DNA of 29,443 bases, from IMG/VR virus record IMGVR_UViG_3300047359_000305, positions 1 to 29,443 of that record, one strand, 5' to 3'. The stretch is from a virus. The notes beneath the pieces were generated by a model. The model did no database searches and had not been told where the DNA came from. It saw only the letters and a list, made by a program, of their open reading frames with translations. This document shows positions 2,746 to 29,377 of the stretch, piece after piece. The translations under genes and the position numbers were made by a program. Numbering within the stretch: position 1 is the stretch's first letter; each line of letters opens with the position of its first letter.

Positions 2746-3030
2746 CCTGCTATGTTTGGTAACAAGGCCTAACTACCTCGTAACAGCCTAGGCCGCTAAT
2801 GAATAATTCGCGTTTGCAATTATTAAGTTTGTTCGCGTTAACCGAGCTTACATCCGGGCAACTCCACTCTTCTACTAATCCGCCTGTCGATCCTAGTTCA
2901 GCCCCATCAAAAATACATTCTCAGTTTATCAGTCTGTTGCTTCTGCTATACAGTAAGCAGAATGTATTTTTGGTGGAGCTGTCGGGTACCGCCCCCGAGT
3001 CCAGCTCGTCGTTTGAATTGCTTCAACGTT
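2746..3030 (-). ncRNA. ssrA: Circularly permuted (two-piece) tmRNA
   Basis: In minus-strand order the gene has an acceptor piece ending in CTCCACCA (CCA at 2973-2971), a 65-nt intervening segment (2970-2906), then a coding piece starting GGGGCTG at 2905. GGGGCTG (2905-2899) pairs with CAGCTCC (2981-2975) in a perfect 7-bp acceptor stem with G3-U at the third pair, the alanine identity element. The acceptor piece has a T-arm-like stem TCGGG/CCCGA (2998-2994 and 2986-2982) with a 7-nt loop. The coding piece continues AGGATCGACAGG, matching the conserved tmRNA D-arm region, then a short tag frame and a pseudoknot-capable segment (2766-2771 with 2789-2794). The intervening segment folds into 13-bp arms 2909-2921 and 2959-2971. 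Exact 5' and 3' ends are estimates. The form is the alphaproteobacterial type. It rescues stalled ribosomes and tags their products. Confidence 0.92.
2788..2817 (-). other. tmRNA tag reading frame (ANANYSLAA)
   Basis: Within the coding piece, a resume codon GCA at 2817-2815 opens A-N-A-N-Y-S-L-A-A followed by TAG. GCA-AAC is also how the E. coli tag begins, and the peptide aligns with ANDENYALAA with one residue missing. The terminal L-A-A is the signature read by ClpXP. The tag frame is assigned by this similarity; the other two frames give no plausible tag. Confidence 0.8.
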
Positions 3031-3037
3031 ACAAGTA

Positions 3038-3068
3038 TATTTATAACACAGAAATTGTTATATGTCAA
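3038..3068 (-). promoter_or_regulatory. tmRNA promoter: sigma70 elements with an overlapping late box
   Basis: The minus strand has TTGACA (3068-3063), a 17-nt spacer and TATAAA (3045-3040), a near-perfect sigma70 promoter. The -10 box is also part of TATAAATA (3045-3038), an exact T4 late promoter box. The -35 overlaps the stop codon of the 71-aa gene. Predicted start sites fall around 3030, at the beginning of the acceptor piece. Confidence 0.85.
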
Positions 3069-3280
3069 CCACCTGGGACAAATTCTTTTGGAGTATACCA
3101 ATTCTTTTGATGATGTATACGTCCTAGCAGTTCTTGTATCTCTGTCATCTCCGCATGGAGTTGAGTAGATACATCGCCTTGAGCAATGGCCATTCCTCTA
3201 CGGCCAGCCTTTGCTCTTAGTGCTGATTCAATGACTTCAATGTCTCTTACTGTAAGTTCAAATTTTTTATTTGGTTTCAT
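3065..3280 (-). CDS. Small hypothetical protein, 71 aa
   Basis: The protein is mostly helical by composition: a basic start (KPNKKFELTVRDIEVIESAL), a middle rich in A, R and Q, a helix EMTEIQELLGRIHHQKNW and a short PKEFVPGG tail. This layout is typical of small proteins in marine T4-like phages, but no function was recognised. Its start ATG overlaps the stop of the 110-aa gene by one base, so translation is probably coupled. Its stop codon lies inside the -35 box of the tmRNA promoter. Confidence 0.7.
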   Translation of the reverse strand: MKPNKKFELTVRDIEVIESALRAKAGRRGMAIAQGDVSTQLHAEMTEIQELLGRIHHQKNWYTPKEFVPGG

Positions 3281-3612
3281 TACATCATACTCATGCCAAA
3301 CAAATCTAGTTCTTCTGCTTCTTTAGTAGCATCTTCATCTGGATTCTTAATTGGCTCTAACCAAGTATCTGCAATATATGCACGAGGCGATGGCCCAAGC
3401 ATAATGCTCAGGTCATCTGCTTCAATCCACCAAAAGTTATCAGTGACTGCCGCTTGACACATTACTCCATTAAAATGGAAATGTGTTCCTCGTTCATAGT
3501 GTCCAATGTGTTCAGCAACTTTTACAATACGTCCAATGTTTTCGGGTCGTACACTGTATTTTATAATTGCTAAGTCGCCTTGTTTACACTTCATTAGTTT
3601 TACTACTTTCAT
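3280..3612 (-). CDS. Hypothetical protein, 110 aa, small beta-rich domain
   Basis: After a short MKVVKL lead the protein reads CKQGDLAIIKYSVRPENIGRIVKVAEHI, which resembles a small SH3-like or KOW-type beta barrel, followed by a W-W pair (FWWIEADD) and a charged tail. No firm family assignment. The frame begins at 3612, which overlaps the upstream gene by 29 bp. An internal ATG at 3594, giving MKCKQGD, would cut the overlap to 11 bp and may be the true start; neither has a clear Shine-Dalgarno sequence. Confidence 0.7.
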   Translation of the reverse strand: MKVVKLMKCKQGDLAIIKYSVRPENIGRIVKVAEHIGHYERGTHFHFNGVMCQAAVTDNFWWIEADDLSIMLGPSPRAYIADTWLEPIKNPDEDATKEAEELDLFGMSMM

Positions 3613-26556: not shown

Positions 26557-27342
26557 ATGAACATTTCGAAACTATCTTTTCCTCAGCGAAGTTTATTGTT
26601 TGCAAAGCTGTCTAGTATAGCTTATAATGATAACATCAAAGAGGTAAAAAAGCAAGTAAAAACTTTAGGCTTTACAACCGTAGAGTTTTACAATAGAGAA
26701 GGCGCACAAGCATACCGTTTTATGAACAAAGACGATATAGTTATTGCATGCCGTGGAACACAACCTACTGAATTCAATGACATTAGTGCAGATTTAAAGG
26801 CATTTCCTGTTGTTGCTGAAACAATTAGTAGAGTACACAGAGGATTCAAAGCAGAAGTAGACGAACTTTGGCCTATGGTGTGCGAAGATATAGCACGTAC
26901 AGTTAACGTTAAGAAGAAATTATGGATATGTGGACATAGTTTAGGAGCCGCAATGGCAACTATTATGGCTAACCGTTGTGAATGTGATACAACACTAAAC
27001 AATCCAGAAGAATTATACACATATGGTTCACCAAGAGTAGGTTGGCCAACTTACGTAAAGAGTTTTGGCACTGTGCATCACAGATGGAAGAACAACAATG
27101 ACGTTGTTACTACTGTTCCACCAAAATTCTTAGGATTTAGACACTGTGGCGAACTACATTACCTAAATGCATTTGGTAACTATAGAAAGCCTACAGGTTG
27201 GCAACTGGTTAAAGACAAACTACGTGGCATGTGGATGGGCATTAAAAAAGGTCAAATAGATAACTTTAGTGATCATTCAATGGATAATTACATTGCACAC
27301 TTAGAAAATTACAGTTCAGGAAAAGAGAACGTACAAAGTTAA
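26557..27342 (+). CDS. Class 3 lipase (alpha/beta hydrolase)
   Basis: 261 aa with all parts of a Lipase_3 domain: FAKLSSIAYND near the start, VIACRGTQPTEFNDISADLK (oxyanion region), VHRGFKAEVDELWP, the nucleophile elbow GHSLGAAMA (S128), YTYGSPRVGWPTYV, catalytic D182 in NNNDVVTTVPP and H240 in SDHSMDNYIAHL. It hydrolyses acyl esters of glycerolipids. No signal peptide, so it acts in the cytoplasm or as a virion part; membrane lipid attack in lysis or membrane remodelling is possible. Relatives are known in marine myoviruses. It is transcribed rightward from the box at 26514-26521. Confidence 0.92.
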   Translation: MNISKLSFPQRSLLFAKLSSIAYNDNIKEVKKQVKTLGFTTVEFYNREGAQAYRFMNKDDIVIACRGTQPTEFNDISADLKAFPVVAETISRVHRGFKAEVDELWPMVCEDIARTVNVKKKLWICGHSLGAAMATIMANRCECDTTLNNPEELYTYGSPRVGWPTYVKSFGTVHHRWKNNNDVVTTVPPKFLGFRHCGELHYLNAFGNYRKPTGWQLVKDKLRGMWMGIKKGQIDNFSDHSMDNYIAHLENYSSGKENVQS

Positions 27343-27358
27343 TGTACTAACTAATAAT

Positions 27359-27856
27359 ATGAGCAATATAGTTACAATTCACGAAATGGAAGAAACATTC
27401 CTTAGTGTTGACTTGAGCTCATATGATACAATTACCTACGATGATGGTCTAGTATCTCAATTAGAACATCGACACAAGTTTCCAAATCATCGTTCAATAT
27501 TTTTTATCTCGCCTGCGTTTATACAGCGAGGAGTAAACGACCTTGGGCAAGAGTGTATGACACTTGAACACGTAAAGATGTTAATAGACGAAGGGTTTGA
27601 AATTGGAGGTCACAGTTATAGTCATGCTAAACTAGGACAGTTCAAAAACTTAGTTGAAATAAGTACGTACATAATGCACGACACTAAACAATGTGCAAAA
27701 TGGTTTGAAAACAATTTAGGGTTTCTTCCTAAGTCGTTTGCATTTCCTTACAATGATGACTGTAAAGGTGTGTACAAGGCTGTAGCAAAGAAGTATGGAT
27801 TTAAAGAGCTGTTTGGCCTCGAGCGAAAACCAATTGAAACGCTTCTGCGTAACTAA
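27359..27856 (+). CDS. Polysaccharide deacetylase (NodB/CE4 type)
   Basis: 165 aa with the three CE4 motifs: TYDDG (26-30) with the metal-binding aspartate D29, HSYSH (85-89) with the metal-binding histidines, and FAFPYN (127-132). The enzymes remove N- or O-acetyl groups from glycans such as peptidoglycan, chitooligosaccharide or O-antigen. At 165 aa it is a compact form lacking the usual final segment. No signal peptide. No clear Shine-Dalgarno sequence is seen, so translation may be coupled to the lipase gene 16 bp upstream. Its last 56 bp overlap, tail to tail, the LmbE-like gene on the other strand. Confidence 0.88.
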   Translation: MSNIVTIHEMEETFLSVDLSSYDTITYDDGLVSQLEHRHKFPNHRSIFFISPAFIQRGVNDLGQECMTLEHVKMLIDEGFEIGGHSYSHAKLGQFKNLVEISTYIMHDTKQCAKWFENNLGFLPKSFAFPYNDDCKGVYKAVAKKYGFKELFGLERKPIETLLRN

Positions 27857-28454
27857 CACCACACTGTTTACCACGATAATTAGCCTGTAGCATCATACTA
27901 TCAACTGACCTTGCATCAGGAAAATCATACACTTCAGTTTCATAATAACCTAACAGTTCTGCTTTACGTCCTGCATAAGGCGTTACATCAATGTATACAT
28001 TAGGAGTAAAGGCTCCATGTGTACCAAAGGCCCATTCTGTACTTGCTGGTATCTCACACATTAGTAATTTGGTTACACTGCTTTCAGGCTTTGGTCTACA
28101 AGCAACAGTTACGCACTCTGCTACCAGTCTATGGTCTTGGTGTACATCGCCAATAAAATGTGTGTACACTGTGTCAGGTTTTATGTTATTCAGTAGTTGT
28201 TCTACAGAATTACTTGTTTCTTGTCGTGTCATTATACAATCTGACTGATCTAATATTATTCCACTGACACCCATTGCTTTACAGTTCTTTTGAAATTGTG
28301 TACTTCTAGAATCTTCTACGTCTGCGCCTGGACGATTGCCTTTGCATAAACTTACTACTGTAACATCATCGCCGGCACCAAGGTGAGCCATTATTGTTCC
28401 TGCTGGACCAAATGATTCATCGTCTGGGTGTGCGAAGATAAACAGTACTTTCAT
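27801..28454 (-). CDS. PIG-L/LmbE family deacetylase
   Basis: 217 aa. The zinc-binding motifs are clear: AHPDDESFGPAGT (8-20; H9, D11, D12) and HQDHR (105-109). Members deacetylate N-acetylglucosamine-type sugars or conjugates. Neighbours are a sugar epimerase (4-bp overlap, ATGA) and, on the other strand, a CE4 deacetylase, so surface glycan or nucleotide-sugar modification is likely. The end overlaps the plus-strand gene by 56 bp without a terminator between. Confidence 0.92.
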   Translation of the reverse strand: MKVLFIFAHPDDESFGPAGTIMAHLGAGDDVTVVSLCKGNRPGADVEDSRSTQFQKNCKAMGVSGIILDQSDCIMTRQETSNSVEQLLNNIKPDTVYTHFIGDVHQDHRLVAECVTVACRPKPESSVTKLLMCEIPASTEWAFGTHGAFTPNVYIDVTPYAGRKAELLGYYETEVYDFPDARSVDSMMLQANYRGKQCGVSYAEAFQLVFARGQTAL

Positions 28455-29377
28455 ATCATGTCCGTAATAATATCGTCTAATGAATACTTAGGTTCATATC
28501 CAAGACTGCGTATCTTATCAATGTTTGGTACACGATACATAATGTCTTCAAACTCTTTTGTAAATGCTTCTTCGTAAGGTACGTACTGTATCTTAGAACT
28601 ACTACCTGATAGTTTAATTACTTGTTCAGCAAGTTGTTTCATGCTCACAGGATTGTCTGCACCAATATTATAAATTTCATTTGGTTTCTCACTTGCTTTT
28701 ACAAGTGCTTCAACACAATCTTTAATGTGACAGAAACTTCTTACTTGTGAACCATCTCCATGTACTATAATATCTTTGCCTGCTTTAGCGGCTTCAATCA
28801 TCTTTGGCAATACCATTCCGTAGTTAGGAAGTTGGCTAGGTCCTGTAATATTAAAGAAACGTACAATGGTGCTGTCAAACCTACTAGCACGTATCATGTG
28901 TTCGCTCATTAGTTTGCTTGTAGCATATGCCCAACGAGCTTTTGAACTTGACCCAATGCCTGGATTGTCTTCTTCTTTAAAGGTAGGACCTTCGCCGTAA
29001 ATTTCACTTGTGGAACTATAGACAACAGGTATCTTTCCTATGTCGTCTAGTATAGGTATAATTTTGTTTGCCAATGCAACATTGTTAAACATTGTTTGCT
29101 TAGGTTGTTCATCGCCTAGTTGTACGCCAACTGAACTTGCAAGGTGGTACACTTGATGTTTGCGACTACATAGTTTCCTAAAGGCACGTTCTTCAATAGT
29201 GTTTAAGTCTGCTTCAACAAACTCAAATAAATTTTTATATTCATCAAACTCATCAAGATCAATTTTACTTGTAGCCAAGTTATCAACTACTGTAATTCTA
29301 TTCCAACGAGTTTTTAGTAAGCGGTGCGTTAGCTCTTTACCTATGAAGCCGGCGCCGCCCAGTAGTAAAATGTTCAT
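28451..29377 (-). CDS. NAD-dependent sugar epimerase/dehydratase (extended SDR)
   Basis: 308 aa. Rossmann motif G7-G-A-G10-F-I-G13, cofactor aspartate in VVDNLATSK, HLASSVGV, the active-site S/T of YSSTSEIYG, and the catalytic Y151-x-x-x-K155 (WAYATSKLMSE). NITGPSQLPNYGMV and the FCHIKDCVEA/NIGADNPVSM segments are those of UDP-glucose/GlcNAc 4-epimerase-like proteins. The exact substrate cannot be told by eye. Ribosome-binding site TTAGGAG. It probably makes or alters a nucleotide sugar used with the PIG-L enzyme downstream. Confidence 0.93.
   Translation of the reverse strand: MNILLLGGAGFIGKELTHRLLKTRWNRITVVDNLATSKIDLDEFDEYKNLFEFVEADLNTIEERAFRKLCSRKHQVYHLASSVGVQLGDEQPKQTMFNNVALANKIIPILDDIGKIPVVYSSTSEIYGEGPTFKEEDNPGIGSSSKARWAYATSKLMSEHMIRASRFDSTIVRFFNITGPSQLPNYGMVLPKMIEAAKAGKDIIVHGDGSQVRSFCHIKDCVEALVKASEKPNEIYNIGADNPVSMKQLAEQVIKLSGSSSKIQYVPYEEAFTKEFEDIMYRVPNIDKIRSLGYEPKYSLDDIITDMI

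Follow-up and report, generated by a model that had tools for sequence, protein, structure and literature searches.

A probably working two-piece tmRNA gene with a derived 3' end in a relative of marine T4-like phages

Does a fragment of a viral genome encode a complete tmRNA, and would that RNA work? The locus in question lies on IMG/VR virus record IMGVR_UViG_3300047359_000305 (29,443 bp), and we will call this whole stretch the window. An initial annotation, made without database searches, placed a phage-borne, circularly permuted (two-piece) tmRNA with its own promoter and terminator at 2746-3068. Our answer is that the window contains a complete permuted tmRNA gene of the alphaproteobacterial type that very probably works; the phage that carries it is a relative of marine T4-like phages.

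One gene is cut off at the low end of the window, which is therefore probably a fragment of a phage genome. We compared 20 of its ORFs to PHROGs, and 14 match families, including an endonuclease, Prs, PAAR, a 2OG-Fe(II) oxygenase, both subunits of ribonucleotide reductase (RNR), an exonuclease, a virion protein, and others. In nucleotides, the RNR region shares 69% identity with Pelagibacter phage Mosig (over 75% of the query) and 68.5% with Pelagibacter phage HTVC008M. These are the top-ranked of 765 matching records, and both phages are Kyanoviridae. Given the RNR relatives and the phage protein families, the record is from a phage, as the annotation had supposed. The phage appears to be related to marine T4-like phages, and its relatives suggest a marine origin. 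A 575-amino-acid protein of the window had no match in the phage collection.

Rfam's covariance models, which the annotation had named as a way to check its claim, gave significant matches. With cmscan, RF04321 (tmRNA_permuted) aligned to 3032-2788 on the minus strand at 100.4 bits (gathering score 47, E = 1e-18), and RF01849 (alpha_tmRNA) aligned to 3072-2725 on the same strand at 83.6 bits (gathering score 50, E = 1.7e-21). Both scores are above the cut-off, and the parts come in the permuted order: the T arm and CCA are upstream, followed by the spacer, and then by the 5' acceptor strand and the tag. This bears out the permuted two-piece form. ARAGORN disagrees with the covariance models and reported no tRNA and no tmRNA in the window. 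A wider Rfam search (E up to 1) found, besides the tmRNA, only the flavivirus cHP family, below its cut-off.

All parts of the gene are on the minus strand, which the annotation had left unstated, and we give their coordinates in that direction. A sigma-70-type promoter (TTGACA at 3068-3063, 17 nt, and TATAAA at 3045-3040) is expected to start the RNA seven bases on, at about 3032. The acceptor piece (3032-2971), as matched by RF04321 and RF01849, includes the 5' strand of P2 (GCAATTC, 3021-3015), the T arm (2998-2982), the 3' acceptor strand (CAGCTCC, 2981-2975), and the encoded CCA that the annotation had noticed (2973-2971). The 65-nt intervening segment (2970-2906) is presumably cut out. 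As claimed, it folds into a hairpin (z = -3.5), with a 12-bp base (2970-2959 with 2921-2910). The coding piece (2905-2749) begins at G1 of GGGGCTG and is taken to reach through a conserved CATAGC. GGGGCTG (2905-2899) pairs with CAGCTCC to form the perfect 7-bp acceptor stem that had been proposed, with G-U as the third pair, and the 3' strand of P2 (GAGTTGC, 2864-2858) pairs with GCAATTC of the acceptor piece.

A pseudoknot (2857-2835) precedes the tag; it consists of S1 (CCG at 2857-2855 with CGG at 2844-2842) and S2 (GCT at 2847-2845 with A(C)GC at 2838-2835). The annotated tag frame, from GCA to TAG (2817-2788), translates to ANANYSLAA plus the stop. The predicted fold and the alignment of the window's subgroup place a hairpin at the end of the tag (2798-2792 with 2787-2781). 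It is followed by a derived tail hairpin (2780-2776 with 2767-2763), which replaces the canonical AACAGA hairpin, and then by TTACCAAACATAGC. Next is an intrinsic terminator, a hairpin with a T-rich tail (2748-2719, -17.2 kcal/mol, z = -3.5). The gene's own promoter is at the right end of the annotated interval; its own terminator is also present, but it lies mostly beyond the annotated left end at 2746.

The whole precursor has a minimum free energy of -101.8 kcal/mol (z = -4.5), and none of 100 shuffles were as low. Taken by itself, neither the coding piece (2907-2800, z = +1.3) nor the tail (2805-2749, z = -0.9) was more stable than shuffles; folding a single piece cannot show pseudoknots or helices that are shared with the other piece.

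How widespread are such genes? In viral contigs, a pattern for the permuted core matched at least 120 stretches, and two window-specific patterns matched 31 and 25 stretches. Among the patterns' matches and some isolates, 131 distinct phage sequences were picked out by a script, which had found 170 phage rows before duplicates were removed. The script missed 18 of 227 records: some lack the gene, and others, Melnitz, Mosig, and HTVC008M among them, are named phages. Rfam scores were above the cut-off in 17 of 17 records tested; these were preselected by earlier searches, so the rate is meaningless. Ten named records have a match: Mosig, HTVC008M, Melnitz, Ruegeria phages V10 and DSS3P8, Rhodobacter phage RcXuper, Brevundimonas phage Bajun, Sinorhizobium phage Phosso, Mesorhizobium phage Cp1R7A-A1, and marine virus AG-345-P14. 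Among bacteria, the RNA was above the cut-off in 349 of 385 genomes sampled from the class of Hellea.

In V10, DSS3P8, RcXuper, Phosso, and Cp1R7A-A1 (our loci L125, L127, L128, L130, and L131), which match RF04321, the tmRNA is unannotated in the stretches shown. The spacer of Phosso is 410 nt. We did not keep a comparison of phage and bacterial spacer lengths, since the permuted-core pattern itself fixes the spacer to 26-56 nt.

We then asked if the fold is under selection. Among the matches listed, each of the 131 distinct phage sequences has standard pairs at all seven positions of the acceptor stem. Most of pairs 1-3 are dictated by the search patterns, as is one side of pairs 4 and 7, which leaves pairs 5 and 6 alone as a test of the stem. 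Pair 5 appears as CG, GC, TA, AT, or TG and is standard in all 131, versus a mean of 57.5 after shuffling. Pair 6 is also standard in 131, versus a shuffled mean of 98.8.

In an alignment of 14 sequences from the window's subgroup, 97.8% of cells are paired, and controls that were slid by up to three columns gave 39.5-44.4%. Fifteen pairs changed on both sides, versus a mean of 6.9 after shuffling (0 of 500 shuffles were as high); because the structure was derived from the window's own sequence, this test leans in the structure's favour. The two-sided changes are in the spacer stem (9, of its 12 pairs), the T stem (3), the acceptor stem (2), and the tail hairpin (1). P2 and the tag-end hairpin have none in this alignment. 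P2 is paired in 98.0% of cells but is almost invariant; RNAalifold favours other pairings for both of its strands, and RF01849 itself pairs GCAA with UUGC.

The segment that had been annotated as capable of forming a pseudoknot is backed by covariation in the relatives. Among the phage sequences that fit a hand-made motif, S1 pairs in 48 of 48 (variants of CCG/CGG include CGG/CCG and CCC/GGG), and the end pair of S2 is T-A in 25, A-T in 14, and G-C in 3, or 42 of 42 versus a shuffled mean of 20.7. The compensatory changes indicate that the two-piece fold is being kept, so it is under selection.

Two other structures came up. A second pseudoknot, in the tail, was rejected: RNAalifold gives a nested hairpin, and the alternative that we drew by hand clashes with locus L024. 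RNAalifold also proposes a helix between GUAA at the start of the acceptor piece and UUAC in the tail. These letters hardly vary, and we consider the possible helix unproven.

The tag gives an independent view of selection. ANANYSLAA has the resume codon, a short tag with a hydrophobic-Ala-Ala end, and a stop. The script called a tag in 117 of the 131 phage rows (some of the other 14 have no call because the locus ends), and 95 of these 117 tags end with LAA; at least two of the 117 calls are plainly wrong (ARNQ and ASRIIG). The 84 distinct tag DNAs ending with LAA contain 41 spellings of LAA plus stop. Therefore, the peptide end is what is conserved.

With 9 residues, the window's tag is short: among 85 bacterial tags that passed a filter, 84 have 10-14 residues, and a doubtful one has 29. 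(The filter dropped 4 phage rows and 11 bacterial rows.)

Some phage tags are long. Tags of 20-31 residues account for 16 of 113 phage tags, as compared to the one doubtful bacterial tag of 85. The tags have 31 residues in L042, L044, L058, L155, and L055; 29 in L041, L045, L065, L051, and L095; 24 in L030 and L049; 23 in L050; 22 in L014 and L028; and 20 in L069. LAA is at the end of 12 of these 16 tags. Of the codon differences between the tags of L042 and L058, six are silent and six alter the residue. This comparison is suggestive of, and does not prove, coding constraint on the long tags.

The signals for transcription also seem to be maintained. TTGACA-17-TATAAA, with the same hexamers and spacer, is found in 15 of 15 rows from the subgroup, 7 nt before the conserved GTAACG (6 nt in L158). 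These rows are 14 distinct members plus L152, which is an exact copy of the window's tmRNA gene. In the 13 other members, the promoter stretch is just 44-96% identical to the window's, with the hexamers unchanged. A looser promoter pattern matches 87 of the 131 phage rows. After CATAGC, all 14 members have a stable hairpin and T-rich DNA, often in other letters. A generic scan for promoters and terminators, which demands T as the last base of the -10 element, listed neither the tmRNA's promoter nor its terminator. Downstream of the tmRNA, prs has its own promoter (TTGACA-17-TATAGT, 2704-2676), which suggests that the tmRNA is a transcription unit by itself.

As for the neighbouring genes, the window encodes a 110-amino-acid protein at 3280-3612 (minus strand) that belongs to phrog_2529, a PHROGs family of unknown function. 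Relatives of this protein are present in 12 of 16 related loci, and in 8 of these they are at most about 250 nt from the tmRNA. Among the same 16 loci, some of which are short, prs was found in L161 and L153 only.

How does the window's RNA compare to the alphaproteobacterial families RF01849 and RF04321? It shares their order of pieces, the T loop, the acceptor stem with G3-U, the context of the resume codon, and the LAA end of the tag. It differs in having a 9-residue tag and no AACAGA hairpin, and its coding piece runs into the terminator. The 3' hairpin of alpha_tmRNA with the ...GCAACAGAA loop, which is in upper case in the consensus of RF01849, was not found in the window. We regard the window's gene as a derived form and not a textbook alpha_tmRNA, even though RF01849 scores above its cut-off.

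AACAGA is present downstream of the core in 92 of 96 bacterial rows, and the other four have only 107-119 nt there. (Duplicates were kept in this set. Thirty-nine rows are from a search with a pattern that demands ANDN, and one of those is the doubtful L205. The other 57 were parsed from 69 higher-scoring members of the class, with the 12 unparsed members left out of the counts. L262 was excluded because it duplicates the location of L250.) The tail is complete in 113 phage rows: AACAGA lies no more than 110 nt past the tag in 96 of them, the window's type of tail is present in 13, and 4 show neither. A strict motif for the canonical tail catches 71 of the 113. The window's type of tail was not seen in any of the 96 bacterial rows. 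Locus L020 looks intermediate, with the canonical stem kept and the loop changed.

Loss of the AACAGA hairpin could change the function of the RNA. This phage subgroup, without the hairpin and with a coding piece that runs into the terminator, is possibly new: a limited search of the open-access literature turned up neither the derived tail nor long phage tags. The derived 3' end can be viewed as a natural experiment that bears on which components a two-piece tmRNA requires.

Some of the genes look mosaic, with the promoter, tRNA-like part, spacer, tag, and tail each closest to different relatives. In L179, the promoter is 98% like that of L078, the 5' part of the coding piece is 98% like that of L015, and the spacer is 97% like the window's. 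In L162, an acceptor piece (94%) and a spacer (87%) that resemble the window's are combined with a canonical tail. It is conceivable, but we think rather unlikely, that marine T4-like phages evolved their own class of permuted tmRNA. In such a class, a new 3' hairpin leading into the terminator would replace the AACAGA hairpin, parts would be swapped as cassettes, and sister tags would reach 20-31 residues; during infection, the phage RNA would compete with the host's tmRNA or be preferred over it, or its products would be sent to a different fate.

Because the fold is kept by compensatory changes and the LAA end is conserved, the tmRNA very probably works. Its protein partner, SmpB (PF01668), was not found in any of 13 phage records, with the control positive in 10 of 14 genomes; the window, two IMG/VR pieces (16 and 20 kb), and AG-345-P14 (79 kb) say little on this point. 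Since smpB is missing from these records, the host's SmpB is presumably used.

From general knowledge of tmRNA biology, we can propose how the RNA would act, from transcription to proteolysis. The host's RNA polymerase with sigma-70 would make a single precursor. Host nucleases would excise the 65-nt hairpin, with RNase P cutting before G2905 and others cutting after the encoded CCA, and the acceptor stem and P2 would hold the two pieces together. The host's alanyl-tRNA synthetase would recognise the G3-U pair and charge the tmRNA with alanine, and the host's SmpB and EF-Tu would carry it to ribosomes that are stalled on broken mRNA. The ribosome would switch to the GCA codon at 2817, add alanine and ANANYSLAA, and stop at TAG, and the tagged protein would go to host proteases of the ClpXP type. 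The phage might gain by keeping ribosomes available and by clearing broken products while host mRNA decays or host tmRNA is short. This gain is the weakest step, and the benefit that the annotation proposed, in which the RNA would supplement the host's trans-translation during late expression or host RNA decay, is equally tentative.

Another potential gain would come from a working tmRNA that mainly tags host proteins for degradation, so that amino acids are recycled to the phage, instead of rescuing ribosomes. This was proposed for Melnitz (PMC9004378). The kept LAA end is consistent with it, and the near-consensus sigma-70-type promoter would permit early expression. However, nothing in our data shows selectivity for host proteins. 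Also, tmRNA selects its targets by ribosome stalling, regardless of whether the mRNA is from the host or the phage. We consider this idea improbable.

Still less probable is a decoy that soaks up the host's SmpB or stalled ribosomes and thereby blocks the host's trans-translation. Mycobacteriophage DS6A has an RNA with only the tRNA-like domain, and this type of RNA is reported to inhibit tmRNA (PMC4131195 and PMC11915505). The changed 3' end of the window's RNA could alter its function in this direction. But a decoy needs no tag, and yet the LAA end is conserved as a peptide across the phages; the pseudoknot before the tag is conserved as well.

Least probable of all is that the gene is a fragment of a host tmRNA or a decaying passenger, such as from an attachment site in ssrA, that no longer functions: ssrA can be an integration site, fragments of it are seen in prophages (PMC9004378), and modules are shuffled between the relatives, but the gene is whole with its own promoter and terminator signals, the compensatory changes in stems and the respelling of LAA across many phages are signs of ongoing selection, and no integrase family was found among the 20 of the window's ORFs that were compared to PHROGs (a subset of the ORFs of a probable fragment).

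Ribosome recovery during the breakdown of host mRNA is our preferred reading of what the phage gains. The gene shows that selection keeps a full ribosome-rescue RNA in phages, together with the end of its degradation tag. Because some phages with the same kind of gene have been isolated (HTVC008M, Mosig, Melnitz, and the Ruegeria phages), its role in infection is directly testable.

Two-piece tmRNAs in phages are not new, a point absent from the annotation: they have been published, and we see them in ten named records. A two-piece tmRNA was reported in Methylophilales phage Melnitz, and the same study counts 53 two-piece forms among 133 unique structures of phage tmRNAs; marine or aquatic samples supplied 50 of those 53 (PMC9004378). 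PMC11915505 describes the tmRNA_permuted model and the processing of viral genomes as well, PMC12656738 describes tmRNAs in phages of Bradyrhizobium elkanii, and PMC10504331 reports no tmRNA for the SAR11 phage Skadi-1. PMC4131195 lists the phages with ssrA that were known in 2014, and its phage-borne tmRNAs include those of Bacillus phage G and of mycobacteriophages such as Bxz1 and Wildcat.

Melnitz and its relatives resemble the phage of the window in being marine Kyanoviridae with a permuted tmRNA of the alphaproteobacterial type, including the acceptor stem. The tags are alike at the end as well, that of Melnitz finishing with ALAA. In contrast, the spacer of Melnitz is 142 nt instead of 65 nt, and its full tag is ANDNYVPVDYALAA. 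Melnitz also has a reported glutamine riboswitch (PMC9004378), whereas no riboswitch family matched in the window (Rfam, E up to 1). Mosig and HTVC008M, the top-ranked RNR relatives, match RF04321 at 93.6 and 90.6 bits, respectively, but a blastn search that used the window's tmRNA as the query did not detect theirs at E = 0.01. The tag of HTVC008M is ANFNEYALAA, and the script called no tag for Mosig. Unlike the window's, the tmRNAs of mycobacteriophages and of Bacillus phage G have the one-piece form.

We rejected the idea of naming the host from the closest bacterial tmRNA. In our bacterial sample, nothing was closer to the window than 69% over 228 nt, and this hit (L205 and L229, which are one place) is from a doubtful contig of a metagenome-assembled genome. 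The contig (PBPT01000016, 335 kb) is labelled Neomarinimicrobiota and has a phage-like permuted tmRNA with the tag ANDNYAPEMAMAA. Its ten relatives have no match. Nearby on the contig are genes for an endolysin-type hydrolase and a NifU protein. PBPT01000016 might be a phage that was binned with the genome or a contig of foreign origin.

At the other end of the window (26557-29377), genes for an esterase/lipase-like protein, a polysaccharide deacetylase, a PIG-L deacetylase, and a nucleotide-sugar epimerase are clustered. Perhaps the phage uses these to modify sugars.
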